Shown: in pieces, positions 10,101 through 42,186 of the stretch
Position numbering within the stretch: position 1 is the first letter of the stretch
Layout: the number at the start of each line of letters is the position of its first letter
Assembly (NCBI GenBank): GCA_946699065.1
Contig: CAMPDV010001190.1
Location: forward strand, 62,001-126,000
Reading direction: 5' to 3'
Source of the DNA: Loxodes magnus
Lineage: Eukaryota > Ciliophora > Karyorelictea > Loxodida > Loxodidae
Length of the DNA stretch: 64,000 nucleotides
Position numbers and translations under genes: made by a program
Notes under the pieces: model-generated
Databases searched by the model: none
What the model was told of the DNA's origin: nothing
The model's input: only the letters and a program-made list of their open reading frames with translations

Positions 10101-10249
10101 CTTTGAGAAGTATTATGTATTAAGAAAAGTGAAGAAGTAGAGTAAGAAAAGAAGATAGAATTTCAGTTTTAAGGAGTATGCTTTGAGAAGTAATAAGTAT
10201 TTAGAAAAGTGAAGAAGTAGAGTAAGAAAAGAAGATAGAGATTCAGTTT

Positions 10250-16839: not shown

Positions 16840-19800
16840 TCAAGGAGTATGATTTGAGAAGTAATAAGTATTAAGAAAAGTGAAGAAGTAGAGTAAGAAA
16901 AGAAGATAGAATTTCAGTTTTAAGTAGAATACTTTGAGAATAAAGTTATTATTTAGAAAAGTGAAGAAGTAGAGTAAGAATAGTAGATAGAATTTCAGTT
17001 TTAAGTAGAATACTTTGAGAAGTATCAAGTATTTAGAAAAGTGAAGAAGTAGAGTAAGAAAAGAAGATAAAATTTCAGTTTTAAGGAGTATGCTTTGAGA
17101 ATAAAGTTATTATTTAGAAAAGTGAAGAAGTAGAGTAAGAAAAGAAGATAGAATTTCAGTTTTAAGTAGAATACTTTGAGAAGTATCAAGTATTTAGAAA
17201 AGTGAAGAAGTAGAGTAAGAAAAGAAGATAGAGATTCAGTTTTAAGGAGTATGCTTTGAGAATAAAGTTATTATTTAGAAAAGTGAAGAAGTAGAGTAAG
17301 AATAGTAGATAGAATTTCAGTTTTAAGTAGAATACTTTGAGAAGTATCAAGTATTTAGAAAAGTGAAGAAGTAGAGTAAGAAAAGAAGATAGAGATTCAG
17401 TTTTAAGGAGTATGCTTTGAGAATAAAGTTATTATTTAGAAAAGTGAAGAAGTAGAGTAAGAATAGTAGATAGAATTTCAGTTTTAAGTAGAATACTTTG
17501 AGAAGTATCAAGTATTTAGAAAAGTGAAGAAGTAGAGTAAGAAAAGAAGATAGAGATTCAGTTTTAAGGAGTATGCTTTGAGAATAAAGTTATTATTTAG
17601 AAAAGTGAAGAAGTAGAGTAAGAATAGTAGATAGAATTTCAGTTTTAAGTAGAATTCTTTGAGAGTATCAAGTATTTAAAAAAGTGAAGAAGTAGAGTAA
17701 GAAAAGAAGATAGAATTTCAGTTTTAAGTAGTATGCTTTGAGAATAAAGTTATTATTTAGAAAAGTGAAGAAGTAGAGTAAGAAAAGAAGATAGAATATC
17801 TATTTAAAGTAGTATGCTTTGAGAAGTATTATGTATTAAGAAAAGTGAAGAAGTAGAGTAAGAAAAGAAGATAGAATTTCAGTTTTAAGGAGTATGCTTT
17901 GAGAAGTAATAAGTATTTAGAAAAGTGAAGAAGTAGAGTAAGAAAAGAAGATAGAGATTCAGTTTTTAAGGAGTATGATTTGAGAAGTAATAAGTATTAA
18001 GAAAAGTGAAGAAGTAGAGTAAGAAAAGAAGATAGAATTTCAGTTTTGAGTAGTATGCTTTGAGAAGTGGCAAGTATTTAGAAAAGTGAAGAAGTAGAGT
18101 AAGAAAAGAAGATAGAGATTCAGTTTTCAAGGAGTATGATTTGAGAAGTAATAAGTATTAAGAAAAGTGAAGAAGTAGAGTAAGAAAAGAAGATAGAATT
18201 TCAGTTTTAAGTAGAATACTTTGAGAATAAAGTTATTATTTAGAAAAGTGAAGAAGTAGAGTAAGAATAGTAGATAGAATTTCAGTTTTAAGTAGAATAC
18301 TTTGAGAAGTATCAAGTATTTAGAAAAGTGAAGAAGTAGAGTAAGAAAAGAAGATAAAATTTCAGTTTTAAGGAGTATGCTTTGAGAATAAAGTTATTAT
18401 TTAGAAAAGTGAAGAAGTAGAGTAAGAAAAGAAGATAGAATTTCAGTTTTAAGTAGAATACTTTGAGAAGTATCAAGTATTTAGAAAAGTGAAGAAGTAG
18501 AGTAAGAAAAGAAGATAGAGATTCAGTTTTAAGGAGTATGCTTTGAGAATAAAGTTATTATTTAGAAAAGTGAAGAAGTAGAGTAAGAATAGTAGATAGA
18601 ATTTCAGTTTTAAGTAGAATACTTTGAGAAGTATCAAGTATTTAGAAAAGTGAAGAAGTAAAGTAAGAAAAGAAGATAGAGATTCAGTTTTAAGGAGTAT
18701 GCTTTGAGAATAAAGTTATTATTTAGAAAAGTGAAGAAGTAGAGTAAGAATAGTAGATAGAATTTCAGTTTTAAGTAGAATACTTTGAGAAGTATCAAGT
18801 ATTTAGAAAAGTGAAGAAGTAGAGTAAGAAAAGAAGATAGAGATTCAGTTTTAAGGAGTATGCTTTGAGAATAAAGTTATTATTTAGAAAAGTGAAGAAG
18901 TAGAGTAAGAATAGTAGATAGAATTTCAGTTTTAAGTAGAATTCTTTGAGAAGTATCAAGTATTTAAAAAAGTGAAGAAGTAGAGTAAGAAAAGAAGATA
19001 GAATTTCAGTTTTAAGTAGTATGCTTTGAGAATAAAGTTATTATTTAGAAAAGTGAAGAAGTAGAGTAAGAAAAGAAGATAGAATATCTATTTAAAGTAG
19101 TATGCTTTGAGAAGTATTATGTATTAAGAAAAGTGAAGAAGTAGAGTAAGAAAAGAAGATAGAATTTCAGTTTTAAGGAGTATGCTTTGAGAAGTAATAA
19201 GTATTTAGAAAAGTGAAGAAGTAGAGTAAGAAAAGAAGATAGAGATTCAGTTTTTAAGGAGTATGATTTGAGAAGTAATAAGTATTAAGAAAAGTGAAGA
19301 AGTAGAGTAAGAAAAGAAGATAGAATTTCAGTTTTAAGTAGAATACTTTGAAAATAAAGTTATTATTTAGAAAAGTGAAGAAGTAGAGTAAGAATAGTAG
19401 ATAGAATTTCAGTTTTAAGTAGAATACTTTGAGAAGTATCAAGCATTTAGAAAAGTGAAGAAGTAGAGTAAGAAAAGAAGATAAAATTTCAGTTTTAAGG
19501 AGTATGCTTTGAGAATAAAGTTATTATTTAGAAAAGTGAAGAAGTAGAGTAAGAATAGTAGATAGAATTTCAGTTTTAAGTAGAATACTTTGAGAAGTAT
19601 CAAGTATTTAGAAAAGTGAAGAAGTAGAGTAAGAAAAGAAGATAGAGATTCAGTTTTAAGGAGTATGCTTTGAGAATAAAGTTATTATTTAGAAAAGTGA
19701 AGAAGTAGAGTAAGAATAGTAGATAGAATTTCAGTTTTAAGTAGAATACTTTGAGAAGTATCAAGTATTTAGAAAAGTGAAGAAGTAGAGTAAGAAAAGA

Positions 19801-22800
19801 AGATAGAATTTCAGTTTTAAGTAGAATACTTTGAGAAGTATCAAGTATTTAGAAAAGTGAAGAAGTAGAGTAAGAAAAGAAGATAAAATTTCAGTTTTAA
19901 GTAGTATGCTTTGAGAAGTATTAAGTATTTAGAAAAGTGAAGAAGTAGAGTAAGAATAGTAGATAGAATTTCAGTTTTAAGTAGAATACTTTGAGAAGTA
20001 TCAAGTATTTAGAAAAGTGAAGAAGTAGAGTAAGAAAAGAAGATAGAATTTCAGTTTTAAGGAGTATGATTTGAGAAGTAATAAGTATTAAGAAAAGTGA
20101 AGAAGTAGAGTAAGAAAAGAAGATAGAATTTCAGTTTTAAGTAGTATGCTTTGAGAATAAAGTTATTATTTAGAAAAGTGAAGAAGTAGAGTAAGAAAAG
20201 AAGATAGAATTTCAGTTTTAAGTAGTATGCTTTGAGAATAAAGTTATTATTTAGAAAAGTGAAGAAGTAGAGTAAGAATAGTAGATAGAATTTCAGTTTT
20301 AAGTAGAATACTTAGAAGTATCAAGTATTTAGAAAAGTGAAGAAGTAGAGTAAGAAAAGAAGATAGAATTTCAGTTTTAAGTAGTATGCTTTGAGAATAA
20401 AGTTATTATTTAGAAAAGTGAAGAAGTAGAGTAAGAACAGAAGATAGAATTTCAGTTTTAAGGAGTATGCTTTGAGAAGTATAAAGTATTTAGAAAAGTG
20501 AAGAAGTAGAGTAAGAAAAGAAGATAGAATTTCAGTTTTAAGGAGTATGCTTTGAGAATAAAGTTATTATTTAGAAAAGTGAAGAAGTAGAGTAAGAATA
20601 GTAGATAGAATTTCAGTTTTAAGTAGAATACTTAGAAGTATAAAGTATTTAGAAAAGTGAAGAAGTAGAGTAAGAAAAGAAGATAGAGATTCAGTTTTTA
20701 AGGAGTATGATTTGAGAAGTAATAAGTATTAAGAAAAGTGAAGAAGTAGAGTAAGAAAAGAAGATAGAATTTCAGTTTTAAGTAGAATACTTTGAGAATA
20801 AAGTTATTATTTAGAAAAGTGAAGAAGTAGAGTAAGAATAGTAGATAGAATTTCAGTTTTAAGTAGAATACTTTGAGAAGTATCAAGCATTTAGAAAAGT
20901 GAAGAAGTAGAGTAAGAAAAGAAGATAAAATTTCAGTTTTAAGGAGTATGCTTTGAGAATAAAGTTATTATTTAGAAAAGTGAAGAAGTAGAGTAAGAAT
21001 AGTAGATAGAATTTCAGTTTTAAGTAGAATACTTTGAGAAGTATCAAGTATTTAGAAAAGTGAAGAAGTAGAGTAAGAAAAGAAGATAGAGATTCAGTTT
21101 TAAGGAGTATGCTTTGAGAATAAAGTTATTATTTAGAAAAGTGAAGAAGTAGAGTAAGAATAGTAGATAGAATTTCAGTTTTAAGTAGTATGCTTTGAGA
21201 AGTATTAAGTATTTAGAAAAGTGAAGAAGTAGAGTAAGAATAGTAGATAGAATTTCAGTTTTAAGTAGAATACTTTGAGAAGTATCAAGTATTTAGAAAA
21301 GTGAAGAAGTAGAGTAAGAAAAGAAGATAGAATTTCAGTTTTAAGGAGTATGATTTGAGAAGTAATAAGTATTAAGAAAAGTGAAGAAGTAGAGTAAGAA
21401 AAGAAGATAGAATTTCAGTTTTAAGTAGTATGCTTTGAGAAGTATTAAGTATTTAGAAAAGTGAAGAAGTAGAGTAAGAATAGTAGATAGAATTTCAGTT
21501 TTAAGGAGTATGCTTTGAGAAGTATCAAGTATTTAGAAAAGTGAAGAAGTAGAGTAAGAAAAGAAGATAGAATTTCAGTTTTAAGGAGTATGATTTGAGA
21601 AGTAATAAGTATTAAGAAAAGTGAAGAAGTAGAGTAAGAAAAGAAGATAGAATTTCAGTTTTAAGTAGTATGCTTTGAGAATAAAGTTATTATTTAGAAA
21701 AGTGAAGAAGTAGAGTAAGAAAAGAAGATAGAATTTCAGTTTTAAGTAGTATGCTTTGAGAATAAAGTTATTATTTAGAAAAGTGAAGAAGTAGAGTAAG
21801 AATAGTAGATAGAATTTCAGTTTTAAGTAGAATACTTAGAAGTATCAAGTATTTAGAAAAGTGAAGAAGTAGAGTAAGAAAAGAAGATAGAATTTCAGTT
21901 TTAAGTAGTATGCTTTGAGAATAAAGTTATTATTTAGAAAAGTGAAGAAGTAGAGTAAGAACAGAAGATAGAATTTCAGTTTTAAGGAGTATGCTTTGAG
22001 AAGTATAAAGTATTTAGAAAAGTGAAGAAGTAGAGTAAGAAAAGAAGATAGAATTTCAGTTTTAAGGAGTATGATTTGAGAAGTAATAAGTATTTAGAAA
22101 AGTGAAGAAGTAGAGTAAGAATAGTAGATAGAATTTCAGTTTTAAGTAGAATACTTAGAAGTATAAAGTATTTAGAAAAGTGAAGAAGTATAGTAAGAAA
22201 AGAAGATAGAGATTCAGTTTTTAAGGAGTATGATTTGAGAATAAAGTTATTATTTAGAAAAGTGAAGAAGTAGAGTAAGAATAGTAGATAAAATTTCAGT
22301 TTTAAGTAGTATGCTTTGAGAAGTATTAAGTATTTAGAAAAGTGAAGAAGTAGAGTAAGAATAGTAGATAGAATTTCAGTTTTAAGTAGAATACTTTGAG
22401 AAGTATCAAGTATTTAGAAAAGTGAAGAAGTAGAGTAAGAAAAGAAGATAGAATTTCAGTTTTAAGGAGTATGATTTGAGAAGTAATAAGTATTAAGAAA
22501 AGTGAAGAAGTAGAGTAAGAAAAGAAGATAGAATTTCAGTTTTAAGTAGTATGCTTTGAGAATAAAGTTATTATTTAGAAAAGTGAAGAAGTAGAGTAAG
22601 AAAAGAAGATAGAATTTCAGTTTTAAGTAGTATGCTTTGAGAATAAAGTTATTATTTAGAAAAGTGAAGAAGTAGAGTAAGAATAGTAGATAGAATTTCA
22701 GTTTTAAGTAGAATACTTAGAAGTATCAAGTATTTAGAAAAGTGAAGAAGTAGAGTAAGAAAAGAAGATAGAATTTCAGTTTTAAGTAGTATGCTTTGAG

Positions 22801-23049
22801 AATAAAGTTATTATTTAGAAAAGTGAAGAAGTAGAGTAAGAACAGAAGATAGAATTTCAGTTTTAAGGAGTATGCTTTGAGAAGTATAAAGTATTTAGAA
22901 AAGTGAAGAAGTAGAGTAAGAAAAGAAGATAAAATTTCAGTTTTAAGGAGTATGCTTTGAGAATAAAGTTATTATTTAGAAAAGTGAAGAAGTAGAGTAA
23001 GAATAGTAGATAGAATTTCAGTTTTAAGTAGAATACTTAGAAGTATAAA

Positions 23050-26000
23050 GTATTTAGAAAAGTGAAGAAGTAGAGTAAGAAAAGAAGATAGAGATTCAGT
23101 TTTTAAGGAGTATGATTTGAGAAGTAATAAGTATTAAGAAAAGTGAAGAAGTAGAGTAAGAAAAGAAGATAGAATTTCAGTTTTAAGTAGAATACTTTGA
23201 GAATAAAGTTATTATTTAGAAAAGTGAAGAAGTAGAGTAAGAATAGTAGATAGAATTTCAGTTTTAAGTAGAATACTTTGAGAAGTATCAAGCATTTAGA
23301 AAAGTGAAGAAGTAGAGTAAGAAAAGAAGATAAAATTTCAGTTTTAAGGAGTATGCTTTGAGAATAAAGTTATTATTTAGAAAAGTGAAGAAGTAGAGTA
23401 AGAATAGTAGATAGAATTTCAGTTTTAAGTAGAATACTTTGAGAAGTATCAAGTATTTAGAAAAGTGAAGAAGTAGAGTAAGAAAAGAAGATAGAGATTC
23501 AGTTTTAAGGAGTATGCTTTGAGAATAAAGTTATTATTTAGAAAAGTGAAGAAGTAGAGTAAGAATAGTAGATAGAATTTCAGTTTTAAGTAGAATACTT
23601 TGAGAAGTATCAAGTATTTAGAAAAGTGAAGAAGTAGAGTAAGAAAAGAAGATAGAATTTCAGTTTTAAGTAGTATGCTTTGAGAATAAAGTTATTATTT
23701 AGAAAAGTGAAGAAGTAGAGTAAGAATAGTAGATAGAATTTCAGTTTTAAGTAGTATGCTTTGAGAAGTATTAAGTATTTAGAAAAGTGAAGAAGTAGAG
23801 TAAGAATAGTAGATAGAATTTCAGTTTTAAGTAGAATACTTTGAGAAGTATCAAGTATTTAGAAAAGTGAAGAAGTAGAGTAAGAAAAGAAGATAGAATT
23901 TCAGTTTTAAGGAGTATGATTTGAAAAGTAATAAGTATTAAGAAAAGTGAAGAAGTAGAGTAAGAAAAGAAGATAGAATTTCAGTTTTAAGTAGTATGCT
24001 TTGAGAAGTATTAAGTATTTAGAAAAGTGAAGAAGTAGAGTAAGAATAGTAGATAGAATTTCAGTTTTAAGTAGAATACTTTGAGAAGTATCAAGTATTT
24101 AGAAAAGTGAAGAAGTAGAGTAAGAAAAGAAGATAGAATTTCAGTTTTAAGGAGTATGATTTGAGAAGTAATAAGTATTAAGAAAAGTGAAGAAGTAGAG
24201 TAAGAAAAGAAGATAGAATTTCAGTTTTAAGTAGTATGCTTTGAGAAGTATTAAGTATTTAGAAAAGTGAAGAAGTAGAGTAAGAATAGTAGATAGAATT
24301 TCAGTTTTAAGTAGAATACTTTGAGAAGTATCAAGTATTTAGAAAAGTGAAGAAGTAGAGTAAGAAAAGAAGATAGAATTTCAGTTTTAAGGAGTATGAT
24401 TTGAGAAGTAATAAGTATTAAGAAAAGTGAAGAAGTAGAGTAAGAAAAGAAGATAGAATTTAAGTTTTAAGTAGAATACTTTGAGAAGTATCAAGTATTT
24501 AGAAAAGTGAAGAAGTAGAGTAAGAAAAGAAGATAGAATTTCAGTTTTAAGTAGTATGCTTTGAGAATAAAGTTATTATTTAGAAAAGTGAAGAAGTAGA
24601 GTAAGAATAGTAGATAGAATTTCAGTTTTAAGTAGTATGCTTTGAGAAGTATTAAGTATTTAGAAAAGTGAAGAAGTAGAGTAAGAATAGTAGATAGAAT
24701 TTCAGTTTTAAGTAGAATACTTTGAGAAGTATCAAGTATTTAGAAAAGTGAAGAAGTAGAGTAAGAAAAGAAGATAGAATTTCAGTTTTAAGGAGTATGA
24801 TTTGAGAAGTAATAAGTATTAAGAAAAGTGAAGAAGTAGAGTAAGAAAAGAAGATAGAATTTCAGTTTTAAGTAGTATGCTTTGAGAATAAAGTTATTAT
24901 TTAGAAAAGTGAAGAAGTAGAGTAAGAAAAGAAGATAGAATTTCAGTTTTAAGTAGTATGCTTTGAGAATAAAGTTATTATTTAGAAAAGTGAAGAAGTA
25001 GAGTAAGAAAAGAAGATAGAATTTCAGTTTTAAGTAGAATACTTAGAAGTATCAAGTATTTAGAAAAGTGAAGAAGTAGAGTAAGAAAAGAAGATAGAAT
25101 TTCAGTTTTAAGTAGTATGCTTTGAGAATAAAGTTATTATTTAGAAAAGTGAAGAAGTAGAGTAAGAACAGAAGATAGAATTTCAGTTTTAAGGAGTATG
25201 CTTTGAGAAGTATAAAGTATTTAGAAAAGTGAAGAAGTAGAGTAAGAAAAGAAGATAGAATTTCAGTTTTAAGGAGTATGCTTTGAGAATAAAGTTATTA
25301 TTTAGAAAAGTGAAGAAGTAGAGTAAGAATAGTAGATAGAATTTCAGTTTTAAGTAGAATACTTTGAGAAGTATCAAGTATTTAGAAAAGTGAAGAAGTA
25401 GAGTAAGAAAAGAAGATAGAATTTCAGTTTTAAGGAGTATGATTTGAGAAGTAATAAGTATTAAGAAAAGTGAAGAAGTAGAGTAAGAAAAGAAGATAGA
25501 ATTTCAGTTTTAAGTAGTATGCTTTGAGAATAAAGTTATTATTTAGAAAAGTGAAGAAGTAGAGTAAGAAAAGAAGATAGAATTTCAGTTTTAAGTAGTA
25601 TGCTTTGAGAATAAAGTTATTATTTAGAAAAGTGAAGAAGTAGAGTAAGAATAGTAGATAGAATTTCAGTTTTAAGTAGAATACTTAGAAGTATTAAGTA
25701 TTTAGAAAAGTGAAGAAGTAGAGTAAGAAAAGAAGATAGAATTTCAGTTTTAAGTAGTATGCTTTGAGAATAAAGTTATTATTTAGAAAAGTGAAGAAGT
25801 AGAGTAAGAACAGAAGATAGAATTTCAGTTTTAAGGAGTATGCTTTGAGAAGTATAAAGTATTTAGAAAAGTGAAGAAGTAGAGTAAGAAAAGAAGATAG
25901 AATTTCAGTTTTAAGGAGTATGCTTTGAGAATAAAGTTATTATTTAGAAAAGTGAAGAAGTAGAGTAAGAATAGTAGATAGAATTTCAGTTTTAAGTAGA

Positions 26001-29000
26001 ATACTTAGAAGTATAAAGTATTTAGAAAAGTGAAGAAGTAGAGTAAGAAAAGAAGATAGAGATTCAGTTTTTAAGGAGTATGATTTGAGAAGTAATAAGT
26101 ATTAAGAAAAGTGAAGAAGTAGAGTAAGAAAAGAAGATAGAATTTCAGTTTTAAGTAGAATACTTTGAGAATAAAGTTATTATTTAGAAAAGTGAAGAAG
26201 TAGAGTAAGAATAGTAGATAGAATTTCAGTTTTAAGTAGAATACTTTGAGAAGTATCAAGCATTTAGAAAAGTGAAGAAGTAGAGTAAGAAAAGAAGATA
26301 AAATTTCAGTTTTAAGGAGTATGCTTTGAGAATAAAGTTATTATTTAGAAAAGTGAAGAAGTAGAGTAAGAATAGTAGATAGAATTTCAGTTTTAAGTAG
26401 AATACTTTGAGAAGTATCAAGTATTTAGAAAAGTGAAGAAGTAGAGTAAGAAAAGAAGATAGAATTTCAGTTTTAAGGAGTATGATTTGAGAAGTAATAA
26501 GTATTAAGAAAAGTGAAGAAGTAGAGTAAGAATAGTAGATAGAATTTCAGTTTTAAGTAGTATGCTTTGAGAAGTATTAAGTATTTAGAAAAGTGAAGAA
26601 GTAGAGTAAGAATAGTAGATAGAATTTCAGTTTTAAGTAGAATACTTTGAGAAGTATCAAGTATTTAGAAAAGTGAAGAAGTAGAGTAAGAAAAGAAGAT
26701 AGAATTTCAGTTTTAAGGAGTATGATTTGAGAAGTAATAAGTATTAAGAAAAGTGAAGAAGTAGAGTAAGAAAAGAAGATAGAATTTCAGTTTTAAGTAG
26801 TATGCTTTGAGAAGTATTAAGTATTTAGAAAAGTGAAGAAGTAGAGTAAGAATAGTAGATAGAATTTCAGTTTTAAGTAGAATACTTTGAGAATAAAGTT
26901 ATTATTTAGAAAAGTGAAGAAGTAGAGTAAGAAAAGAAGATAGAATTTCAGTTTTAAGGAGTATGCTTTGAGAAGTAATAAGTATTAAGAAAAGTGAAGA
27001 AGTAGAGTAAGAAAAGAAGATAGAATTTCAGTTTTAAGTAGTATGCTTTGAGAATAAAGTTATTATTTAGAAAAGTGAAGAAGTAGAGTAAGAAAAGAAG
27101 ATAGAATTTCAGTTTTAAGTAGTATGCTTTGAGAATAAAGTTATTATTTAGAAAAGTGAAGAAGTAGAGTAAGAATAGTAGATAGAATTTCAGTTTTAAG
27201 TAGAATACTTAGAAGTATCAAGTATTTAGAAAAGTGAAGAAGTAGAGTAAGAAAAGAAGATAGAATTTCAGTTTTAAGTAGTATGCTTTGAGAATAAAGT
27301 TATTATTTAGAAAAGTGAAGAAGTAGAGTAAGAATAGTAGATAGAATTTCAGTTTTAAGTAGAATACTTAGAAGTATAAAGTATTTAGAAAAGTGAAGAA
27401 GTAGAGTAAGAAAAGAAGATAGAGATTCAGTTTTTAAGGAGTATGATTTGAGAAGTAATAAGTATTAAGAAAAGTGAAGAAGTAGAGTAAGAAAAGAAGA
27501 TAGAATTTCAGTTTTAAGTAGAATACTTTGAGAATAAAGTTATTATTTAGAAAAGTGAAGAAGTAGAGTAAGAATAGTAGATAGAATTTCAGTTTTAAGT
27601 AGAATACTTTGAGAAGTATCAAGCATTTAGAAAAGTGAAGAAGTAGAGTAAGAAAAGAAGATAAAATTTCAGTTTTAAGGAGTATGCTTTGAGAATAAAG
27701 TTATTATTTAGAAAAGTGAAGAAGTAGAGTAAGAATAGTAGATAGAATTTCAGTTTTAAGTAGAATACTTTGAGAAGTATCAAGTATTTAGAAAAGTGAA
27801 GAAGTAGAGTAAGAAAAGAAGATAGAGATTCAGTTTTAAGGAGTATGCTTTGAGAATAAAGTTATTATTTAGAAAAGTGAAGAAGTAGAGTAAGAATAGT
27901 AGATAGAATTTCAGTTTTAAGTAGAATACTTTGAGAAGTATCAAGTATTTAGAAAAGTGAAGAAGTAGAGTAAGAAAAGAAGATAGAATTTCAGTTTTAA
28001 GTAGTATGCTTTGAGAATAAAGTTATTATTTAGAAAAGTGAAGAAGTAGAGTAAGAATAGTAGATAGAATTTCAGTTTTAAGTAGTATGCTTTGAGAAGT
28101 ATTAAGTATTTAGAAAAGTGAAGAAGTAGAGTAAGAATAGTAGATAGAATTTCAGTTTTAAGTAGAATACTTTGAGAAGTATCAAGTATTTAGAAAAGTG
28201 AAGAAGTAGAGTAAGAAAAGAAGATAGAATTTCAGTTTTAAGGAGTATGATTTGAAAAGTAATAAGTATTAAGAAAAGTGAAGAAGTAGAGTAAGAAAAG
28301 AAGATAGAATTTCAGTTTTAAGTAGTATGCTTTGAGAAGTATTAAGTATTTAGAAAAGTGAAGAAGTAGAGTAAGAATAGTAGATAGAATTTCAGTTTTA
28401 AGTAGAATACTTTGAGAAGTATCAAGTATTTAGAAAAGTGAAGAAGTAGAGTAAGAAAAGAAGATAGAATTTCAGTTTTAAGGAGTATGATTTGAGAAGT
28501 AATAAGTATTAAGAAAAGTGAAGAAGTAGAGTAAGAAAAGAAGATAGAATTTCAGTTTTAAGTAGTATGCTTTGAGAATAAAGTTATTATTTAGAAAAGT
28601 GAAGAAGTAGAGTAAGAATAGTAGATAGAATTTCAGTTTTAAGTAGAATACTTTGAGAAGTATCAAGTATTTAGAAAAGTGAAGAAGTAGAGTAAGAAAA
28701 GAAGATAGAATTTCAGTTTTAAGGAGTATGATTTGAGAAGTAATAAGTATTAAGAAAAGTGAAGAAGTAGAGTAAGAAAAGAAGATAGAATTTCAGTTTT
28801 AAGTAGAATACTTTGAGAAGTATCAAGTATTTAGAAAAGTGAAGAAGTAGAGTAAGAAAAGAAGATAGAATTTCAGTTTTAAGTAGTATGCTTTGAGAAT
28901 AAAGTTATTATTTAGAAAAGTGAAGAAGTAGAGTAAGAATAGTAGATAGAATTTCAGTTTTAAGTAGTATGCTTTGAGAAGTATTAAGTATTTAGAAAAG

Positions 29001-29700
29001 TGAAGAAGTAGAGTAAGAATAGTAGATAGAATTTCAGTTTTAAGTAGAATACTTTGAGAAGTATCAAGTATTTAGAAAAGTGAAGAAGTAGAGTAAGAAA
29101 AGAAGATAGAATTTCAGTTTTAAGGAGTATGATTTGAGAAGTAATAAGTATTAAGAAAAGTGAAGAAGTAGAGTAAGAAAAGAAGATAGAATTTCAGTTT
29201 TAAGTAGTATGCTTTGAGAATAAAGTTATTATTTAGAAAAGTGAAGAAGTAGAGTAAGAAAAGAAGATAGAATTTCAGTTTTAAGTAGTATGCTTTGAGA
29301 ATAAAGTTATTATTTAGAAAAGTGAAGAAGTAGAGTAAGAAAAGAAGATAGAATTTCAGTTTTAAGTAGAATACTTAGAAGTATCAAGTATTTAGAAAAG
29401 TGAAGAAGTAGAGTAAGAAAAGAAGATAGAATTTCAGTTTTAAGTAGTATGCTTTGAGAATAAAGTTATTATTTAGAAAAGTGAAGAAGTAGAGTAAGAA
29501 CAGAAGATAGAATTTCAGTTTTAAGGAGTATGCTTTGAGAAGTATAAAGTATTTAGAAAAGTGAAGAAGTAGAGTAAGAAAAGAAGATAGAATTTCAGTT
29601 TTAAGGAGTATGCTTTGAGAATAAAGTTATTATTTAGAAAAGTGAAGAAGTAGAGTAAGAATAGTAGATAGAATTTCAGTTTTAAGTAGAATACTTAGAA
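23050..29700. repeat. Long-range duplication within the 80-bp array, offset about 4.33 kb
   Basis: The unit order of about 23050-25350 is repeated at about 27380-29690. Rare markers keep the distance: the AAGCATTTAG joint at 23290 and 27621, the single-base variant TTGAAAAGTAATAAG at 23921 and 28252 (4,331 bp), and the AGTAAGAACAGAAG unit at 25161 and 29493 (4,332 bp). Inside the first copy a three-unit block of exactly 240 bp is repeated in tandem (about 23761, 24001, 24241). The two copies differ by swaps of individual unit types. Confidence 0.75.
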
Positions 29701-30600
29701 GTATAAAGTATTTAGAAAAGTGAAGAAGTAGAGTAAGAAAAGAAGATAGAATTTCAGTTTTAAGTAGTATGCTTTGAGAATAAAGTTATTATTTAGAAAA
29801 ATTAAGAAGTAGAGTAAGAACAGAAGATAGAGATTCAGTTTTAAGGAGTATGCTTTGAGAATAAAGTTATTATTTAGAAAAGTGAAGAAGTAGAGTAAGA
29901 ATAGTAGATAGAATTTCAGTTTTAAGTAGAATACTTAGAAGTATCAAGTATTTAGAAAAGTGAAGAAGTAGAGTAAGAAAAGAAGATAGAATTTCAGTTT
30001 TAAGTAGTATGCTTTGAGAATAAAGTTATTATTTAGAAAAGTAAAGAAGTAAAGTAAGAAAAGAAGATAGAATTTCAGTTTTAAGTAGAATACTTTGAGA
30101 AGTATCAAGTATTTAGAAAAGTGAAGAAGTAGAGTAAGAAAAGAAGATAGAATTTCAGTTTTAAGGAGTATGCTTTGAGAATAAAGTTATTATTTAGAAA
30201 AGTGAAGAAGTAGAGTAAGAATAGTAGATAGAATTTCAGTTTTAAGTAGAATACTTTGAGAAGTATCAAGTATTTAGAAAAGTGAAGAAGTAGAGTAAGA
30301 AAAGAAGATAGAATTTCAGTTTTAAGGAGTATGCTTTGAGAATAAAGTTATTATTTAGAAAAGTGAAGAAGTAGAGTAAGAACAGAAGATAGAGATTCAG
30401 TTTTAAGGAGTATGCTTTGAGAATAAAGTTATTATTTAGAAAAGTGAAGAAGTAGAGTAAGAATAGTAGATAGAATTTCAGTTTTAAGTAGAATACTTTG
30501 AGAAGTATCAAGTATTTAGAAAAGTGAAGAAGTAGAGTAAGAAAAGAAGATAGAATTTCAGTTTTAAGTAGTATGCTTTGAGAATAAAGTTATTATTTAG

Positions 30601-31080
30601 AAAAGTGAAGAAGTAGAGTAAGAAAAGAAGATAGAATATCTATTTTAAGTAGTATGCTTTGAGAAGTATTATGTATTAAGAAAAGTGAAGAAGTAGAGTA
30701 AGAAAAGAAGATAGAATTTCAGTTTTAAGGAGTATGCTTTGAGAAGTAATAAGTATTTAGAAAAGTGAAGAAGTAGAGTAAGAATAGTAGATAGAATTTC
30801 AGTTTTAAGTAGAATACTTTGAGAAGTATCAAGTATTTAGAAAAGTGAAGAAGTAGAGTAAGAAAAGAAGATAGAATATCTATTTTAAGTAGTATGCTTT
30901 GAGAAGTATTATGTATTAAGAAAAGTGAAGAAGTAGAGTAAGAAAAGAAGATAGAATTTCAGTTTTAAGGAGTATGCTTTGAGAAGTAATAAGTATTTAG
31001 AAAAGTGAAGAAGTAGAGTAAGAATAGTAGATAGAATTTCAGTTTTAAGTAGAATACTTTGAGAAGTATCAAGTATTTAG
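30601..31080. repeat. Exact 240-bp three-unit tandem duplication
   Basis: Bases 30601-30840 and 30841-31080 read the same throughout. Each contains one unit with the variant AGAATATCTATTTTAAG in place of AGAATTTCAGTTTTAAG. Perfect identity suggests a recent duplication. A similar recent duplication of four units (320 bp) is seen at about 33541-34180, marked by the rare CTTTGTGAAGTATTATG at 33621 and 33941. Confidence 0.85.
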
Positions 31081-34000
31081 AAAAGTGAAGAAGTAGAGTA
31101 AGAAAAGAAGATAGAATTTCAGTTTTAAGGAGTATGATTTGAGAAGTAATAAGTATTAAGAAAAGTGAAGAAATAGAGTAAGAAAAGAAGATAGAATTTC
31201 AGTTTTAAGTAGTATGCTTTGAGAATAAAGTTATTATTTAGAAAAGTGAAGAAGTAGAGTAAGAATAGTAGATAGAATTTCAGTTTTAAGTAGAATACTT
31301 TGAGAAGTATCAAGTATTTAGAAAAGTGAAGAAGTAGAGTAAGAAAAGAAGATAAAATTTCAGTTTTAAGTAGTATGCTTTGAGAATAAAGTTATTATTT
31401 AGAAAAGTGAAGAAGTAGAGTAAGAATAGTAGATAGAATTTCAGTTTTAAGTAGAATACTTTGAGAAGTATCAAGTATTTAGAAAAGTGAAGAAGTAGAG
31501 TAAGAAAAGAAGATAAAATTTCAGTTTTAAGTAGTATGCTTTGAGAATAAAGTTATTATTTAGAAAAGTGAAGAAGTAGAGTAAGAAAAGAAGATAGAAT
31601 TTCAGTTTTAAGTAGTATGATTTGAGAAGTATCAAGTATTTAGAAAAGTGAAGAAGTAGAGTAAGAAAAGAAGATAGAATTTCAGTTTTAAGTAGTATGA
31701 TTTGAGAAGTATCAAGTATTTAGAAAAGTGAAGAAGTAGAGTAAGAAAAGAAGATAGAATTTCAGTTTTAAGTAGTATGCTTTGAGAATAAAGTTATTAT
31801 TTAGAAAAGTGAAGAAGTAGAGTAAGAAAAGAAGATAGAATTTCAGTTTTAAGTAGTATGCTTTGAGAAGTATCAAGTATTTAGAAAAGTGAAGAAGTAG
31901 AGTAAGAAAAGAAGATAGAATTTCAGTTTTAAGAAGAATACTTTGAGAAGTATCAAGCATTTAGAAAAGTGAAGAAGTAGAGTAAGAAAAGAAGATAAAA
32001 TTTCAGTTTTAAGGAGTATGCTTTGTGAAGTATTATGTTATAAGAAAAGTGAAGAAGTAGAGTAAGAATAGTAGATAGAATTTCAGTTTTAAGTAGAATA
32101 CTTTGAGAAGTATCAAGTATTTAGAAAAGTGAAGAAGTAGAGTAAGAAAAGAAGATAGAATTTCAGTTTTAAGGAGTATGCTTTGAGAATAAAGTTATTA
32201 TTTAGAAAAGTGAAGAAGTAGAGTAAGAAAAGAAGATAAAATTTCAGTTTTAAGTAGTATGCTTTGAGAATAAAGTTATTATTTAGAAAAGTGAAGAAGT
32301 AGAGTAAGAATAGTAGATAGAATTTCAGTTTTAAGTAGTATGATTTGAGAAGTATCAAGTATTTAGAAAAGTGAAGAAGTAGAGTAAGAAAAGAAGATAG
32401 AATTTCAGTTTTAAGGAGTATGATTTGAAAAGTAATAAGTATTAAGAAAAGTGAAGAAGTAGAGTAAGAAAAGAAGATAGAATTTCAGTTTTAAGTAGTA
32501 TGCTTTGAGAAGTATTAAGTATTTAGAAAAGTGAAGAAGTAGAGTAAGAATAGTAGATAGAATTTCAGTTTTAAGTAGAATACTTAGAAGTATAAAGTAT
32601 TTAGAAAAGTGAAGAAGTAGAGTAAGAAAAGAAGATAGAATTTCAGTTTTAAGGAGTATGATTTGAGAAGTAATAAGTATTAAGAAAAGTGAAGAAGTAG
32701 AGTAAGAAAAGAAGATAGAATTTCAGTTTTAAGTAGTATGCTTTGAGAATAAAGTTATTATTTAGAAAAGTGAAGAAGTAGAGTAAGAATAGTAGATAGA
32801 ATTTCAGTTTTAAGTAGAATACTTTGAGAAGTATCAAGTATTTAGAAAAGTGAAGAAGTAGAGTAAGAAAAGAAGATAAAATTTCAGTTTTAAGTAGTAT
32901 GCTTTGAGAATAAAGTTATTATTTAGAAAAGTGAAGAAGTAGAGTAAGAATAGTAGATAGAATTTCAGTTTTAAGTAGAATACTTAGAAGTATCAAGTAT
33001 TTAGAAAAGTGAAGAAGTAGAGTAAGAAAAGAAGATAGAATTTCAGTTTTAAGTAGTATGCTTTGAGAAGTATTAAGTATTTAGAAAAGTGAAGAAGTAG
33101 AGTAAGAATAGTAGATAGAATTTCAGTTTTAAGTGGTATGATTTGAGAAGTATAAAGTATTTAGAAAAGTGAAGAAGTAAAGTAAGAATAGTAGATAGAA
33201 TTTCAGTTTTAAGTAGTATGCTTTGAGAAGTATCAAGTATTTAGAAAAGTGAAGAAGTAGAGTAAGAAAAGAAGATAGAATTTCAGTTTTAAGGAGTATG
33301 CTTTGAGAAGTATTAAGTATTTAGAAAAGTGAAGAAGTAGAGTAAGAATAGTAGATAGAATTTCAGTTTTAAGTAGAATACTTTGAGAAGTATCAAGTAT
33401 TTAGAAAAGTGAAGAAGTAGAGTAAGAAAAGAAGATAGAATTTCAGTTTTAAGTAGTATGCTTTGAGAAGTATCAAGTATTTAGAAAAGTGAAGAAGTAG
33501 AGTAAGAATAGTAGATAGAATTTCAGTTTTAAGTAGAATACTTTGAGAAGTATCAAGTATTTAGAAAAGTGAAGAAGTAGAGTAAGAAAAGAAGATAGAA
33601 TTTCAGTTTTAAGGAGTATGCTTTGTGAAGTATTATGTTATAAGAAAAGTGAAGAAGTAGAGTAAGAAAAGAAGATAGAATTTCAGTTTTAAGTAGAATA
33701 CTTTGAGAAGTATCAAGTATTTAGAAAAGTGAAGAAGTAGAGTAAGAAAAGAAGATAGAATTTCAGTTTTAAGTAGTATGATTTGAGAAGTATAAAGTAT
33801 TTAGAAAAGTGAAGAAGTAGAGTAAGAATAGTAGATAGAATTTCAGTTTTAAGTAGAATACTTTGAGAAGTATCAAGTATTTAGAAAAGTGAAGAAGTAG
33901 AGTAAGAAAAGAAGATAGAATTTCAGTTTTAAGGAGTATGCTTTGTGAAGTATTATGTTATAAGAAAAGTGAAGAAGTAGAGTAAGAAAAGAAGATAGAA

Positions 34001-34140
34001 TTTCAGTTTTAAGTAGAATACTTTGAGAAGTATCAAGTATTTAGAAAAGTGAAGAAGTAGAGTAAGAAAAGAAGATAGAATTTCAGTTTTAAGTAGTATG
34101 ATTTGAGAAGTATAAAGTATTTAGAAAAGTGAAGAAGTAG

Positions 34141-37100
34141 AGTAAGAATAGTAGATAGAATTTCAATTTTAAGGAGTATGCTTTGAGAAGTATAAAGTAT
34201 TTAGAAAAGTGAAGAAGTAGAGTAAGAAAAGAAGATAAAATATCTATTTTAAGGAGTATGCTTTGAGAAGTATTGAGTATTTAGAAAAGTAAAGAAGTAA
34301 AGTAAGAAAAGAAGATAAAATTTCAGTTTTAAGGAGTATGATTTGAGAAGTAATAAATATTTTGAAAAGTGAAGAATTAAAGTAAGAAAAGAAGATAGAA
34401 TTTCAGTTTTAATGAGTATGATTTCAGAAGTAATAAGTATTTAGAAAAGTGAAGAAGTAGAGTAAGAAAAGAAGATAGAATTTCAGTTTTAAGTAGTATG
34501 ATTTGAGAAGTATAAAGTATTTAGAAAAGTGAAGAAGTAGAGTAAGAATAGTAGATAGAATTTCAGTTTTAAGTAGAATACTTTGAGAAGTATCAAGTAT
34601 TTAGAAAAGTGAAGAAGTAGAGTAAGAAAAGAAGATAGAATTTCAGTTTTAAGGAGTATGATTTGAGAAGTAATAAGTATTTAGAAAAGTGAAGAAGTAG
34701 AGTAAGAAAAGAATATAAAATATCTGTTTTAAGTAGTATGCTTTGAGAATAAATTTATTATTTAGAAAAGTAAAGAAGTAAAGTAAGAAAAGAAGATAAA
34801 ATTTCAGTTTTAAGGAGTATGCTTTGAGAATAAAGTTATTATTTAGAAAAGTGAAGAAGTAGAGTAAGAATAGTAGATAGAATTTCAGTTTTAATGAGTA
34901 TGATTTGAGAAGTAATAAGTATTTAGAAAAGTGAAGAAGTAAAGTAAGAAAAGAAGATAGAATTTCAATTTTAAGGAGTTTGCTTTGAGAAGTATTAAGT
35001 ATTTAGAAAAGTGAAGAAGTAGAGTAAGAAAAGAAGATAGAATTTCAGTTTTAAGTAGAATACTTTGAGAAGTATTAGTATTTAGAAAAGTTAAGAAGTA
35101 AAGTAAGAAAAGAAGATAAAATTTCAATTTTAAGTAGAATACTTTGAGAAGTAATAAGTATTTTGAAAAGTGAAGAAGTAGAGTAAGAAAAGAAGATAGA
35201 ATTTCAATTTTAAGGAGTATGCTTTGAGAAGTATTAAGTATTTAAAAAAGCTAAGAAGTAGAGTAAGAAAAGAAGATAGAATTTCAGTTTTAAGTAGAAT
35301 ACTTTGAGAAGTATCAAGTATTTAGAAAAGTGAAGAAGTAGAGTAAGAAAAGAAGATAGAATTTCAGTTTTAAGTAGTATGCTTTGAGAATAAAGTTATT
35401 ATTTAGAAAAGTGAAGAAGTAGAGTAAGAAAAGAAGATAGAATTTCAGTTTTAAGTAGTATGCTTTGAGAAGTATCAAGTATTAAGAAAAGTGAAGAAGT
35501 AGAGTAAGAACAGAAGATAGAATTTCAGTTTTAAGGAGTATGCTTTGAGAAGTATAAAGTATTTAGAAAAGTGAAAAAGTAAAGTAAGAAAAGAAGTTAG
35601 AATTTCAGTTTTAAGTAGAATACTTTGAGAAGTGGCAAGTATTTAGAAAAGTGAAGAAGTAGAGTAAGAAAAGAAGTTAGAATTTCAGTTTTAAGGAGTA
35701 TGCTTTGAGAAGTATTAAGTATTTAGAAAAGTGAAAAAGTAAAGTAAGAAAAGAAGATAGAATTTCAGTTTTAAGGATTATACTTTGAGAAGTGGCAAGT
35801 ATTTAGAAAAGTGAAGAAGTAGAGTAAGAAAAGAAGTTAGAATTTCAGTTTTAAGGAGTATGCTTTGAGAAGTATTAAGTATTTAGAAAAGTGAAAAAGT
35901 AAAGTAAGAAAAGAAGATAGAATTTCAGTTTTAAGGATTATACTTTGAGAAGTATTAAGTATTTAGAAAAGTGAAGAAGTAAAGTAAGAAAAGAAGTTAA
36001 AATTTCAGTTTTAAGGAGTATGCCTTGAGAAGTAATAAGTATTTAGAAAAGTGAAGAATTAAAGTAAGAAAAGAAGATAGAATTTCAGTTTTAATGAGTA
36101 TGATTTGAGAAGTAATAAGTATTTAGAAAAGTGAAGAAGTAAAGTAAGAAAAGAAGAAGAATATCTTTTTAAGTAGTATGCTTTGAGAATAAAGTTATTA
36201 TTTAGAAAAGTGAAGAAGTAGAGTAAGAAAAGAAGATAGAATTTCAATTTTAAGGAGTATGCTTTGAGAAGTAATAAGTATTTAGAAAAGTGAAAAAGTA
36301 AAGTAAGAAAAGAAGATAGAATATCTATTTAAAGTAGTACGCTTTGAGAATAAAGTTATTATTTAGAAAAGTGAAGAAGTAGAGTAAGAAAAGAAGATAG
36401 AATTTCAGTTTTAAGGAGTATGCTTTGAGAAGTATTAATTATTTAGAAAAGTGAAGAAGTAGAGTAAGAAAAGAAGATAAAATATCTATTTTAATGAGTA
36501 TGCTTTGAGAAATAATAAGTATTTCGAAAAGTGAAGAAGTAGAGTAAGAAAAGAAGATAGAATTTCAGTTTTAAGGAGTATGCTTTGAGAAGTAATAAGT
36601 ATTTCGAAAAGTGAAGAAGTAGAGTAAGAAAAGAAGATAGAATATCTATTTAAGTAGTATGCTTTGAGAATAAAGTTATTATTTAGAAAGTGAAGAAGTA
36701 GAGTAAGAATAGTAGATAGAATTTCAGTTTTAAGGAGTATGCTTTGAGAATAAATTTATTATTTAGAAAAGTAAAGAAGTAAAGTAAGAAAAGAAGATAA
36801 AATTTCAGTTTTAAGTAGAATACTTTGAGAAGTATTAAGTATTTAGAAAAGTGAAGAAGTAGAGTAAGAAAAGAAGATAGAATTTCAGTTTTAATGAGTA
36901 TGATTTGAGAAGTATTAAGTATTTAGAAAAGTGAAGAAGTAGAGTAAGAATAGAAGATAGAATTTCAGTTTTAATGAGTATGATTTGAGAAGTATTAAGT
37001 ATTTAGAAAATTGAAAAAGTAGAGTAAGAAAAGAAGATAGAATTTCAGTTTTAAGGAGTATGCTTTGAGAAGTATTAAGTATTTAGAAAAGTGAAGAAGT

Positions 37101-39287
37101 AAAGTAAGAAAAGAAGATAGAATTTCAGTTTTAAGGAGTATGCTTTGTGAAGTATTATGTTATAAGAAAAGTGAAGAAGTAGAGTAAGAAAAGAAGATAG
37201 AATTTCAGTTTTAAGTAGAATACTTTGAGAAGTAATAAGTATTTAGAAAAGTGAAGAAGTAGAGTAAGAAAAGAAGATAGAATTTCAGTTTTAAGTAGTA
37301 TGCTTTGAGAATAAAGTTATTATTTAGAAAAGTGAAGAAGTAGAGTAAGAAAAGAAGATAGAATTTCAGTTTTAAGGAGTATGCTTTGAGAAGTAATAAG
37401 TATTTTGAAAAGTGAAGAAGTAAAGTAAGAAAGGAAGATAGAATTTCAGTTTTAAGGAGTATGCTTTGAGAAGTATTAAGTATTTAGAAAAGTGAAGAAG
37501 TAGAGTAAGAAAAGAAGATAGAATTTCAGTTTTAAGTAGAATACTTTGAGAAGTATAAGTATTTGGAAAAGTGAAGAAGTAGAGTAAGAAAAGAAGATAG
37601 AATTTCAGTTTTAAGTAGTATGCTTTGAGAAGTAATAATTATTTAGAAAAGTGAAGAAGTAAAGTAAGAAAAGAAGATAGAATTTCAGTTTTAAGGAGTA
37701 TGCTTTGAGAAGTAATAAGTATTTAGAAAAGTGAAGAAGTAAAGTAAGAAAAGTAGATAGAATATCTATTTAAGTAGTATGCTTTGAGAATAAAGTTATT
37801 ATTTAGAAAGTGAAGAAGTAGAGTAAGAAAAGAAGTTAAAATTTCAGTTTTAAGGAGTATGATTTGAGAAGTATTAGTATTTAGAAAAGTGAAGAAGTAA
37901 AGTAAGAAAAGAAGATAGAATTTCATTGTTAACGAGTATGCTTTAGAAGTATTAAGTATTAAGAAAAGTGAAGAAGTAAAGTAAGAATAGTAGATAGAAT
38001 TTCAGTTTTAAGGAGTATGCTTTGAGAAGTATTAAGTATTTAGAAAAGTGAAGAAGTAAAGTAAGAAAAGAAGATAAAATTTCAATTTTAAGGAGTATGC
38101 TTTGAGTAGTATTAAGTATTTAGAAAAGTGAAGAAGTAAAGTAAGAAAAGAAGATAGAATTTCAGTTTTAAGTAGTACGCTTTGAGAATAAAGTTATTAT
38201 TTAGAAAGTGAAGAAGTAAAGTAAGAAAAGAAGATAGAATTTCAGTTTTAAGGAGTATGCTTTGAGAAGTATTGAGTATTTAGAAAAGTGAAGAAGTAGA
38301 GTAAGAAAAGAAGATAGAATTTCAATTTTAATTAGAATACTTTTAGAAGTATTAAGTATTTAGAATAGTTAAGAAGTAGAGTAAGAAAAGAAGATAAAAT
38401 TTCAGTTTTAAGGAGTATGCTTTGGGAAGTATCAAGTATTAAGAAAAGTGAAGAAGTAGAATAAGAAAAGAAGATAGAATTTCAGTTTTAAGTAGTATGC
38501 TTTGAGAATAAAGTTATTATTTAGAAAAGTGAAGAAGTAGAGTAAGAAAAGAAGATAGAATTTCAATTTTAAGGAGTATGCTTTGAGAAGTATTAAGTAT
38601 TTAGAAAAGTTAAGAAGTAGAGTAAGAAAAGAAGATGGAATTTAAGTTTTAAGTAGTATGCTTTGAGAAGTAATAAGTATTTTGAAAAGTGAAGAAGTAG
38701 AGTAAGAAAAATAGATAGAATTTCAGTTTTAAGTAATATGCTTTAAGAAGTATTAAGTATTTAGAAAAGTTAAGAAGTAGAGTAAGAAAAGAAGATGGAA
38801 TTTCAGTTTTAAGTAGTATGCTTTGAGAAGTATCAAGTATTTAGAAAAGTGAAGAAGTAGAGTAAGAATAGTAGATAGAATTTCAGTTTTAAGGAGTATG
38901 CTTTGAGAAGTAATAAGTATTTAGAAAAGTGAAGAAGTAGAGTAAGAAAAGAAGATAGAATTTCAGTTTTAAGTAGAATACTTTGAGAAGTAATAAGTAT
39001 TTAGAAAAGTGAAGAAGTAAAGTAAGAATAGTAGATAGAATTTCAGTTTTAAGTAGAATACTTTGAGAAGTATCAAGTATTTAGAAAAGTGAAGAAGTAG
39101 AGTAAGAAAAGAAGATAGAATTTCAGTTTTAAGTAGTATGCTTTGAGAAGTAATAAGTATTTAGAAAAGTGAAGAAGTAGAGTAAGAAAAGAAGATAGAA
39201 TTTCAGTTTTAAGTAGTATGCTTTGAGAATAAAGTTATTATTTAGAAAAGTGAAGAAGTAGAGTAAGAATAGTAGATAAAATTTCAG
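34141..39287. repeat. Diverged right flank of the 80-bp array
   Basis: From about 34.14 kb the units carry many private changes that are rare or absent to the left: TTTCAATTTTAAG, AAATTTATTATTTAG, TATTTCGAAAAG or TATTTTGAAAAG, AAAGTAAG for GAGTAAG, GAAGTTAG for GAAGATAG, and single-base losses such as TTTAGAAAGTG. The tandem register is kept. This is the usual picture of the edge of a satellite array, where homogenisation is weaker. The edge extends to the junction with the second satellite at 41.6 kb. Confidence 0.75.
37680..38775. repeat. First copy of a duplicated 1.1-kb stretch of array (second copy 40530-41612)
   Basis: This stretch shares rare variants with 40530-41612 at an offset of about 2,850 bp. 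They are TTTCATTGTTAACGAG (37921 and 40771), AGTACGCTTTGAG (about 38175 and 41025), AATTAGAATACTTTTAG (38330 and 41181), TTTGGGAAGTATCAAG (38422 and 41273), GATGGAATTTAAG (38634 and 41486) and TAATATGCTTTAAG (38744 and 41584). If the 835-bp insert and one 16-bp flank are subtracted, the offset is about 2,000 bp, or 25 units. Confidence 0.85.
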
Positions 39288-39303
39288 TTTTAAGTAGAAT
39301 ACT
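39288..39303. repeat. Left 16-bp target-site duplication of the insert
   Basis: The sequence TTTTAAGTAGAATACT at the left edge of the insert is repeated exactly at its right edge (40139-40154). It is ordinary 80-bp-array sequence. Deleting the insert and one copy restores an intact unit (TTTTAAGTAGAATACT followed by TTGAGAAGT). The repeat therefore arose by insertion. The exact length is uncertain by a few bases because of a T run on the right and a shared T next to the (TAA)n tail on the left. Confidence 0.85.
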
Positions 39304-39317
39304 AATAATAATAATAA
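39303..39317 (-). repeat. (ATT)5 3' tail of the retroelement
   Basis: Five TAA triplets on the plus strand read as ATT repeats on the minus strand, lying between the end of the open frame and the left target-site duplication. Short-period tails of this kind replace poly(A) in several non-LTR retrotransposon lineages. Confidence 0.7.
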
Positions 39318-39322
39318 TATAC

Positions 39323-40132
39323 TTAAAGTTAGTAGAGTTTTGCATTCTCTGGAATTGCAACCAGTTCCTGCGGACAGTTTTTTTAACGTGAGTGTGATCC
39401 ACGACATTTTTATTAAGTGGAAGGTTACCACTGTAACCGTTCAAGTGGTCTTGCAAAAAGCTTTTATTTGTAGATCCCTGTTGGAGTTATTCATAGTTTA
39501 TTGAGTTGTCTCCATGTTCTTTTCTGCTCTTATTCGTTTATTTTCTTTCATTATCAACAGTTTTTTAAAATATGTTGATTTGATTTGCAACATCAACAAA
39601 GTTTGTATTATTGTCTTTATTTCGTTCTTTTTTATGATAATTTATTTTCTATGTTTTCTAATCTTTTAATGAAACTTGTAGCAATCATTTCTTTTTCTGG
39701 ATTCAATTCTGTTTTTAATTCTATTGGTATTTTTTCTATTTCCATTTTCGTGTCATATTTAAAGTTTTATTGTGACTAAGTTCAGAGTTGTTCTTCCGTT
39801 ATCAAATTGCTTTGAATGAGCTGTCTTCTGAGTATTAATAATTCGTTGTTTTAATCCTCTATGCTATTCATTAATTCCCTTATTTTTTCTCCTTAGTTAT
39901 AAGCTATTTCTTCATACTTTGAAATTAATTTTTACATTTGATCTAGTTAAATTTAAAGTTTTTGATCAGATTCGTTCTTAGGTTATCTTATCTCTATAGA
40001 TCCTACCATCACTTTACCTTCTGATGACGAACTTGACTCCTCTCGTTGCTATTGTTTTTTCTAAATTTCTTTTGCCGTTTTTCTCTTTAGGTTTTTAAGT
40101 TAATTCTTTGAGAGTCGAAGAGATTAATCCAT
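39323..40132 (-). CDS. Gag/ORF1-like zinc-knuckle protein read with a reassigned code (TAA/TAG Gln, TGA Trp)
   Basis: The ATG is at 40132-40130. The frame runs about 270 codons without an indel but contains 24 TAA/TAG and 5 TGA codons (residues 117, 180, 193, 195, 214). Read as Gln and Trp they give a coherent protein. TAA/TAG sit beside CAA at residues 27-29, 121-122 and 174-175, as in Gln runs. Residues 1-32 are basic; 33-38 are a Ser/Glu run. Residues 58-107 look like a coiled coil (leucines and isoleucines in heptads). Residues 129-176 are charged and helical-looking. Residues 179-192 (CWCCKSNQHILKNC) form a CCHC zinc knuckle whose second residue, usually aromatic, is a TGA. A C-terminal tail has another Cys/His cluster (Cys243, His247, Cys253). 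Third codon positions are AT-rich, as expected here. Such proteins coat element RNA. No clear stop precedes the tail. Under a TGA-stop code it would be a pseudogene ending at residue 116. Confidence 0.72.
39557..39598 (-). other. CCHC zinc-knuckle motif within the ORF
   Basis: Residues 179-192 of the minus-strand frame have Cys179, Cys182, His187 and Cys192 in exact C-X2-C-X4-H-X4-C spacing, with the HIxKNC ending common in retroelement nucleocapsid and copia- or LINE-type Gag knuckles. This motif class binds single-stranded nucleic acid through zinc. One TGA lies inside it (residue 180) and two more follow directly (193 and 195). Confidence 0.7.
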
Positions 40133-40138
40133 TTTTTT

Positions 40139-40154
40139 TTTTAAGTAGAATACT
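40139..40154. repeat. Right 16-bp target-site duplication of the insert
   Basis: This is the exact second copy of TTTTAAGTAGAATACT (left copy 39288-39303). It follows a T run (40132-40142) that corresponds to the A run upstream of the ORF's ATG, so the boundary is ambiguous by several bases. The 80-bp array resumes in register from here. Confidence 0.85.
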
Positions 40155-41612: not shown

Positions 41613-41675
41613 TAAAAAAGTAAAGAAAAAAGAAAGAAAAGAAGAAATCTTTCTTTTTTTATTATTGCTTTTTTT
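41613..41675. other. Junction between the two satellites, with an 11-bp hairpin
   Basis: The 80-bp array dissolves into an A/G-only run (41622-41647) that turns directly into a T-rich run. AAAAAAGAAAG at 41626-41636 is exactly complementary to CTTTCTTTTTT at 41649-41659 with a 12-base loop. The inverted repeat sits exactly where the plus strand changes from purine-rich to pyrimidine-rich. Recognisable 919-bp-unit sequence starts at about 41676. No target-site duplication or element end is visible. Confidence 0.7.
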
Positions 41676-42129: not shown

Positions 42130-42186
42130 GGTCCCATTTTGTCTAAGCGGTTTATTTGGAAATATTTTTATGACAAGTCTTATCTA

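Follow-up and report, generated by a model that had tools for sequence, protein, structure and literature searches.

HAL1 elements, the half-LINEs of mammals, carry ORF1 only and are derived from L1. The element described here is likewise a short retroposon that is non-autonomous, lacks RT and has a single ORF1-like frame, but differs in its knuckle protein, its (TTA)n tail and its 5' A-run, and no parent LINE was found for it in the LINE copies read. Persaeus, a short derivative of a non-LTR retrotransposon, is comparable to our element; it comes from a known CR1 and is internally deleted (PMC6740152). The LINEs rnd-1_family-27 and -19 of the karyorelict ciliate Loxodes magnus (PMC11441545) share both genome and genetic code with our element; they are however 5-6 kb long with EN-RT. 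The LINE copies read here, whichever published family they represent, include two with a knuckle ORF upstream of EN-RT, and have no significant ORF1 similarity to the element and another 3' end. The L. magnus MAC assembly amounts to 706 Mbp, of which low-complexity tandem repeats make up 231 Mbp; over 30,000 of its elements are classified as LINEs, and its repeat families are mostly unclassified (PMC11441545). We found no description of the element in the available portions of the literature; it may be catalogued unnamed among the repeats of that assembly (PMC11441545).

The genetic code itself is already known. NCBI table 27, the karyorelict code assigned to L. magnus, makes the same assignments that our element calls for, TAA/TAG as Gln and internal TGA as Trp (PMC11441545, PMC4967479). 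The element shows no difference from this table, although TGA is much commoner in these mobile-element ORFs than the whole-transcriptome UGA usage published for three other ciliates. All three stop codons are also reported to be sense, as Gln and Trp, in Amoebophrya sp. ex Karlodinium veneficum, a dinoflagellate relative likened here by its published code only (PMC12005148, PMC6394959).

The window analysed here, 64,000 nt of L. magnus DNA (C1190:62001-126000), is repeat DNA: an 80-bp satellite array (11-39297 and 40139-41645, or 1..39287 and 40155-41645 when the target-site duplication is set apart) followed by a 919-bp tandem array (~41650-64000, the window end). The satellite is broken by an 835-bp stretch for which it served as insertion target. 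On either side of it stands a perfect direct repeat of 16 bp, TTTTAAGTAGAATACT (left copy 39288..39303, right copy 40139..40154). Beyond the insert the satellite picks up again 16 bp before the point where it broke off, identifying the repeat as a target-site duplication (TSD). A tandem-repeat origin of the insert was considered and rejected, its direct repeats at spacing 194 being weak (p 0.056). Two further observations concern the repeats themselves. A 24-nt resemblance to the surrounding satellite lies within the insert at 40093-40115 and was equalled in 2 of 200 shuffles. The 919-bp array yielded 24 units through one motif, with 5 of the 23 spacings at 920-921, and in the part that was read each unit contains three TTAGACGCGGG motifs.

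The 835-bp body (39304..40138, minus strand) consists of an A-run (40133..40138), an ATG immediately following it, a single ORF of 270 codons (P0001, 39323..40132) read with TAA/TAG as Gln and TGA as Trp, and a microsatellite-like 3' tail of (TTA)n (39304..39322), all on the minus strand. Elements of this type have ORFs of ~265-270 codons laid out as a basic N-terminal part, a coiled coil, a CX2CX4HX4C zinc knuckle and a conserved C-terminal part; here the heptad segment occupies residues ~63-112 (39797..39946) and the knuckle, a motif pattern, residues 179-192 (39557..39598). The A-run sits at the coding-strand 5' end, unlike that of a poly(A)-tailed retrocopy, and measures 3-13 nt, adjoining flank A included, in 21 copy rows of the first subfamily. 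The length of this oligo(A) varies, reaching 31 nt in one copy (L058) of the second subfamily. TSDs of variable length, a repeat tail, and the lack of LTRs or long terminal inverted repeats place the unit with non-LTR-type retroposons; its six frames gave no Pfam RVT/EN match, which sets it apart from an autonomous LINE.

We searched the whole assembly (705,730,643 bases in 7,843 contigs) for relatives. At the DNA level there were at least 40 matches of 99-100% identity over 810 nt among the best-scored of 2,904 candidates, and at the protein level at least 142 full-length matches (query 1-2 to 267-269) among the best-scored of 12,979 candidates, the window included in both. Only the best candidates were scored, so partial copies could be hidden behind these counts, and some rows may be duplicate contigs, flanks being shared among L023, L024 and L028 and between L037 and L038. 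Nine copies (L022-L029 and L006) align without gaps, end to end, over 835 nt. Direct repeats of at least 10 bp flank 16 of 21 copy rows (the window copy being one row, and L037/L038 sharing one flank); in the remaining five the repeats are 9 bp (L032), 8 bp (L024, L036) or absent (L023, L028). The 835-bp stretch is very probably a single insertion belonging to a family of short retroposons that is abundant in the karyorelict ciliate L. magnus.

A second subfamily is represented by a paralogue in L029, 53% identical with one gap over 235 residues and with the knuckle kept as CYYCKSKWHLLQNC. It has at least 150 near-identical matches among the best-scored of 12,766 candidates, and the ends of its members L056-L058, judged by eye, have repeats on both flanks, with an A-run preceding the ATG. 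An older copy, L012, is ~68% identical, the similarity being spread over more than one frame.

Because the unit has neither RT nor endonuclease, an outside enzyme must copy it, and we infer that it is probably moved in trans by LINEs of the host. Its protein would be read through NCBI table 27, with TAA/TAG as Gln and TGA as Trp away from the mRNA end, and is predicted to be a gag/ORF1-like RNA-binding protein that may coat its own RNA. That RNA would be copied in trans by target-primed reverse transcription, a host LINE giving the endonuclease and the reverse transcriptase, and individual copies, once inserted, would drift neutrally. Taken as a whole, we hold this explanation with high confidence: a short, high-copy, gag-like but RT-less retroposon, encoding a table 27 protein, probably moved by LINEs, with drifting copies. 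More tentatively, it may represent a gag-only retroposon lineage in Loxodes, with no RT of its own, a selected gene, a protein that would have to help the RNA encoding it (cis preference), subfamilies spreading in parallel and a code without a dedicated stop.

A possible objection to a separate gag-only lineage is that the element arose by internal deletion from a longer, autonomous LINE, of which it retains ORF1 and the 3' end. LINEs with EN-RT are present in this genome (for example L042), and one locus read with Trp and Gln gives an EN-RT protein matching RVT_1 (E 4.6e-36) and Exo_endo_phos_2 (2.9e-11). In favor of derivation, two LINE copies (L044, L047) each have one CX2CX4HX4C knuckle in the region preceding EN-RT, and the C97/C80 LINE likewise ends in a short repeat. 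That repeat is however (TTTA)n after a hairpin-like sequence, unlike the element's tail, and blastp of P0001 against the L044 and L047 upstream regions gave nothing better than E 4.6. The LINE copies read, which are a handful out of 3,403 RVT_1 candidates, included none with the 3' end or the ORF1 of the element. Two subfamilies 53% identical share the same short build. We regard such a derivation as unlikely, while granting it more weight than any of the other alternatives considered below.

Several side observations concern the LINEs and their surroundings. Just downstream of two of the five LINE copies read (C97 and C105, not C80, C333 or C910) there are further small ORFs whose products have a knuckle or a motif resembling one; they start with MASKKQQN in L052 (C97) and MSPKKQSTKNQQ in L048/L053 (C105), and one small downstream ORF is 32% identical to P0001 over 74 residues. 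Residues 261-364 of coding-strand frame 0 of L043 match P0001 residues 125-228 weakly (23% over 108, E 2.8e-5), at a location upstream of the part in which L043 aligns with L042. A search of the sampled stretches for RT motifs gave four matches, none convincing.

The case that the ORF is the copy of a real gene is made by its relatives. The most informative comparison is with the L006 copy (L006:2885-3719), 93% identical and with its own TSD. Between the two there are 58 substitutions and no gaps, distributed 18/9/31 over the codon positions, with 30 synonymous and 21 nonsynonymous codons where random placement expects 14.7 and 39.3 (0 of 5,000 placements were as extreme); the other two frames have 40 and 46 nonsynonymous codons. 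Of the 58 substitutions 52 lie within the ORF's first 390 nt, so that for the C-terminal half the sign of selection is the conservation of blocks shared with L012 and L029; the unevenness possibly reflects gene conversion or template switching between subfamilies. Nineteen younger copies, 12 of them picked for carrying 4 or 6 TGAs, look neutral: their 60 distinct changes divide 41 nonsynonymous to 19 synonymous against 44.3 to 15.7 expected (P 0.17). The L006 result together with these neutral young copies indicates that the source lineage was under purifying selection while single copies drift. Compared in this way, the family is a discrete unit with TSDs and many near-identical copies, in which purifying selection between subfamilies acts in the P0001 frame.

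The same comparisons bear on the code. Against L006, stop codons take part in seven changes that are synonymous for Gln, CAA/CAG to TAA accounting for four of these, and TAR faces Arg, Ser, Leu and Tyr codons at four other sites. Assigning Gln to TAR leaves 21 nonsynonymous codons where other residues leave 24-25, and is the best of the 20 choices. Against the 53% paralogue, with cells counted from both sides, TAA faces Gln at 17 of 36 and TAG at 3 of 8, and Gln again yields the most identities (127, others at most 123). Of the 9 TGA cells, 4 face Trp, representing two shared sites that are each counted twice, and 2 face Tyr; here Tyr gives 128 identities and Trp, Asp and Gln 127 each, a near-tie that leaves the paralogue table undecided, so that the choice of Trp leans on TGG/TGA exchange and on the published code. 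That exchange is found at site 195, which is TGA in the window and in L055 and TGG in L056-L058. By alignment of relatives, then, Gln is the best residue for TAR, and TGG and TGA exchange at a conserved site.

To sample the host genome we took 210 kb of a single contig, in 21 pieces of 10 kb each. They contain no standard-code stop-to-stop ORF of at least 200 aa. With TGA as the only stop there are 373 ORFs, a partly trivial result because fewer stop codons lengthen ORFs. The TGA-free segments of at least 230 aa numbered 238, of which ten were submitted to Pfam, chosen by composition and length from the top 45 listed, with the numerous ones from L004 omitted. All ten matched Pfam families with TAR read through, among them glutamine synthetase, the E1 enzyme (two segments) and cyclophilin. 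With stops masked as X, the E1 and glutamine synthetase translations still align with PDB chains over most of their length; opposite the 55 masked positions stand Glu 12 times, Lys and Gln 6 times each, Arg 5 times and other residues for the rest, a polar but mixed set, so this test does not single out Gln.

Could TAA/TAG be Gln while TGA is the only stop, as in table 6, making the five TGAs of the window ORF marks of decay? In favor of this, UGA makes up 0.042-0.12% of codons in three other ciliates that read it as Trp (PMC4967479), far below 5 of 270 (P <=2.3e-5). However, 130 of the 142 scored protein matches have five TGAs; TGA at site 214 is common to both subfamilies, and residues past it are conserved, besides the exchange at site 195; and several TGAs occur in each RVT_1 domain, typically 6-9 TGA, 1-5 TAG and 6-9 TAA per ~262 codons in the 150 best-scored of 3,403 candidates. 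We therefore judge decay of the TGAs to be very improbable. TGA accounts for ~3% of RT-domain codons (L042, L043 and these 150 places), against the published UGA range just given, and its use in mobile elements may be much above that in host genes. The last in-frame TGA of the window ORF is codon 214, ~187 nt from the 3' end of the element, with none nearer to it. Gains and losses of TGA in the young copies fit drift and so say little on the code: of seven copies with one TGA lost, one has TGG there and six have Leu, Arg or Phe codons, and of five gains two arose from TGG.

These results agree on a frame that needs TAA/TAG as Gln and TGA as Trp, as the preliminary description proposed: selection, CAR/TAR swaps, the TGG/TGA exchange, the ten TAR-read ORFs and the EN-RT ORFs all point the same way. 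In relatives, site 195 has TGG, and at sites 117 and 180 TGA is partnered by Tyr, so that Tyr does as well as Trp in the paralogue table. It was right to name a ciliate, and very probably right in naming a karyorelict among the candidates. Its contention that a single relic would identify the code did not hold, since unaligned sequence cannot tell Gln, Glu and Lys or Trp and Tyr apart. The word relic fits the neutral-looking single copies, but not a high-copy family whose source lineage was under purifying selection; full-length copies, which it had looked to elsewhere in the assembly, exist in numbers (the 142 or more scored matches above).

A more skeptical view is that the frame is an accident of an A-rich noncoding retroposon and the CCHC pattern a product of chance; the stop counts, the weak period 3 and the young copies favor it. 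The preliminary description gave the minus-strand frame exactly (ATG at 40132; 24 TAA/TAG, namely 21 TAA and 3 TAG, plus 5 TGA in 270 codons), and its exact zinc knuckle is confirmed. Its appeal to continuity under the reassigned code carries no weight: when all three are read as Gln and Trp every codon is sense, any frame is continuous, and openness proves nothing. Stop counts lie close to the positional-composition expectation (TAA 21 vs 19.1, TAG 3 vs 5.1, TGA 5 vs 5.6), as they do in all three minus-strand frames. When all six frames of 20,000 order-2 shuffles were examined, 14 showed a CX2CX4HX4C pattern, and in 4 of these the second residue was aromatic. The coiled-coil-like segment it noticed is weak taken alone (p 0.044 if a single frame is considered and 0.118 if three are), although well conserved in the 53% paralogue, and its argument from GC at third positions over 39336-39470 is weak, the +1 frame there having no stop codon. 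Period 3 reaches p 0.014-0.017 when the entire ORF is taken, but no better than 0.065 in its first 540 or 620 nt, and control pieces of both tandem arrays gave 0.064 and 0.081. AlphaFold was rejected as support for the ORF, whose mean pLDDT of 50.3 is below the 73.3 of the control frame. From the window alone the coding claim is suggestive, the decisive evidence being comparison outside it. The neutral ratio in young copies also suits an accident. Against it stand the codon-position bias and synonymous excess relative to L006, and a 53% paralogue that keeps its knuckle and its alignment with one gap in 235 residues; on these grounds we consider an accidental frame scarcely credible.

Database searches added little. 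The Pfam check for zf-CCHC and gag families that the preliminary description had in mind came back empty, with no match to the ORF translation in Pfam (E up to 10) or NCBIfam. The best PDB hits were tektins (E 0.02 and 0.04), and a second PDB search gave none. Scans of viral contigs and genome contigs gave no match, except that one run returned two stretches, neither of them confirmed. A structured RNA in the element was likewise rejected (z 0.2 and 0.9); Rfam found nothing over window positions 39000-44000, and a tRNA scan nothing in the window and L001-L021.

Least credible of all, and barely conceivable, is a standard-code gene that decayed once inserted or suffered C-to-T hypermutation, by RIP or otherwise. 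Such a process would indeed turn CAA/CAG into TAA/TAG and TGG into TGA, but there is no RIP signature (TpA observed/expected 0.78, CpA and TpG near 1), stop counts are almost alike across the 142 or more matches, and the host sample combines no standard-code ORF of 200 aa with family matches for every TAR-read ORF submitted.

We return to the RT-less retroposon with a table 27 gene. In such a genome, scans by standard translation go blind, as the 210-kb sample illustrates. The young copies and the 53% paralogue form a clean natural test set in which stop reassignments can be read as synonymous swaps. They also raise a puzzle, that of a non-autonomous element keeping a selected gene, which the two abundant young subfamilies make testable. 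If the gag-only lineage is real, it would be a coding parasite of LINEs, unusual in beginning with oligo(A) at its 5' end.
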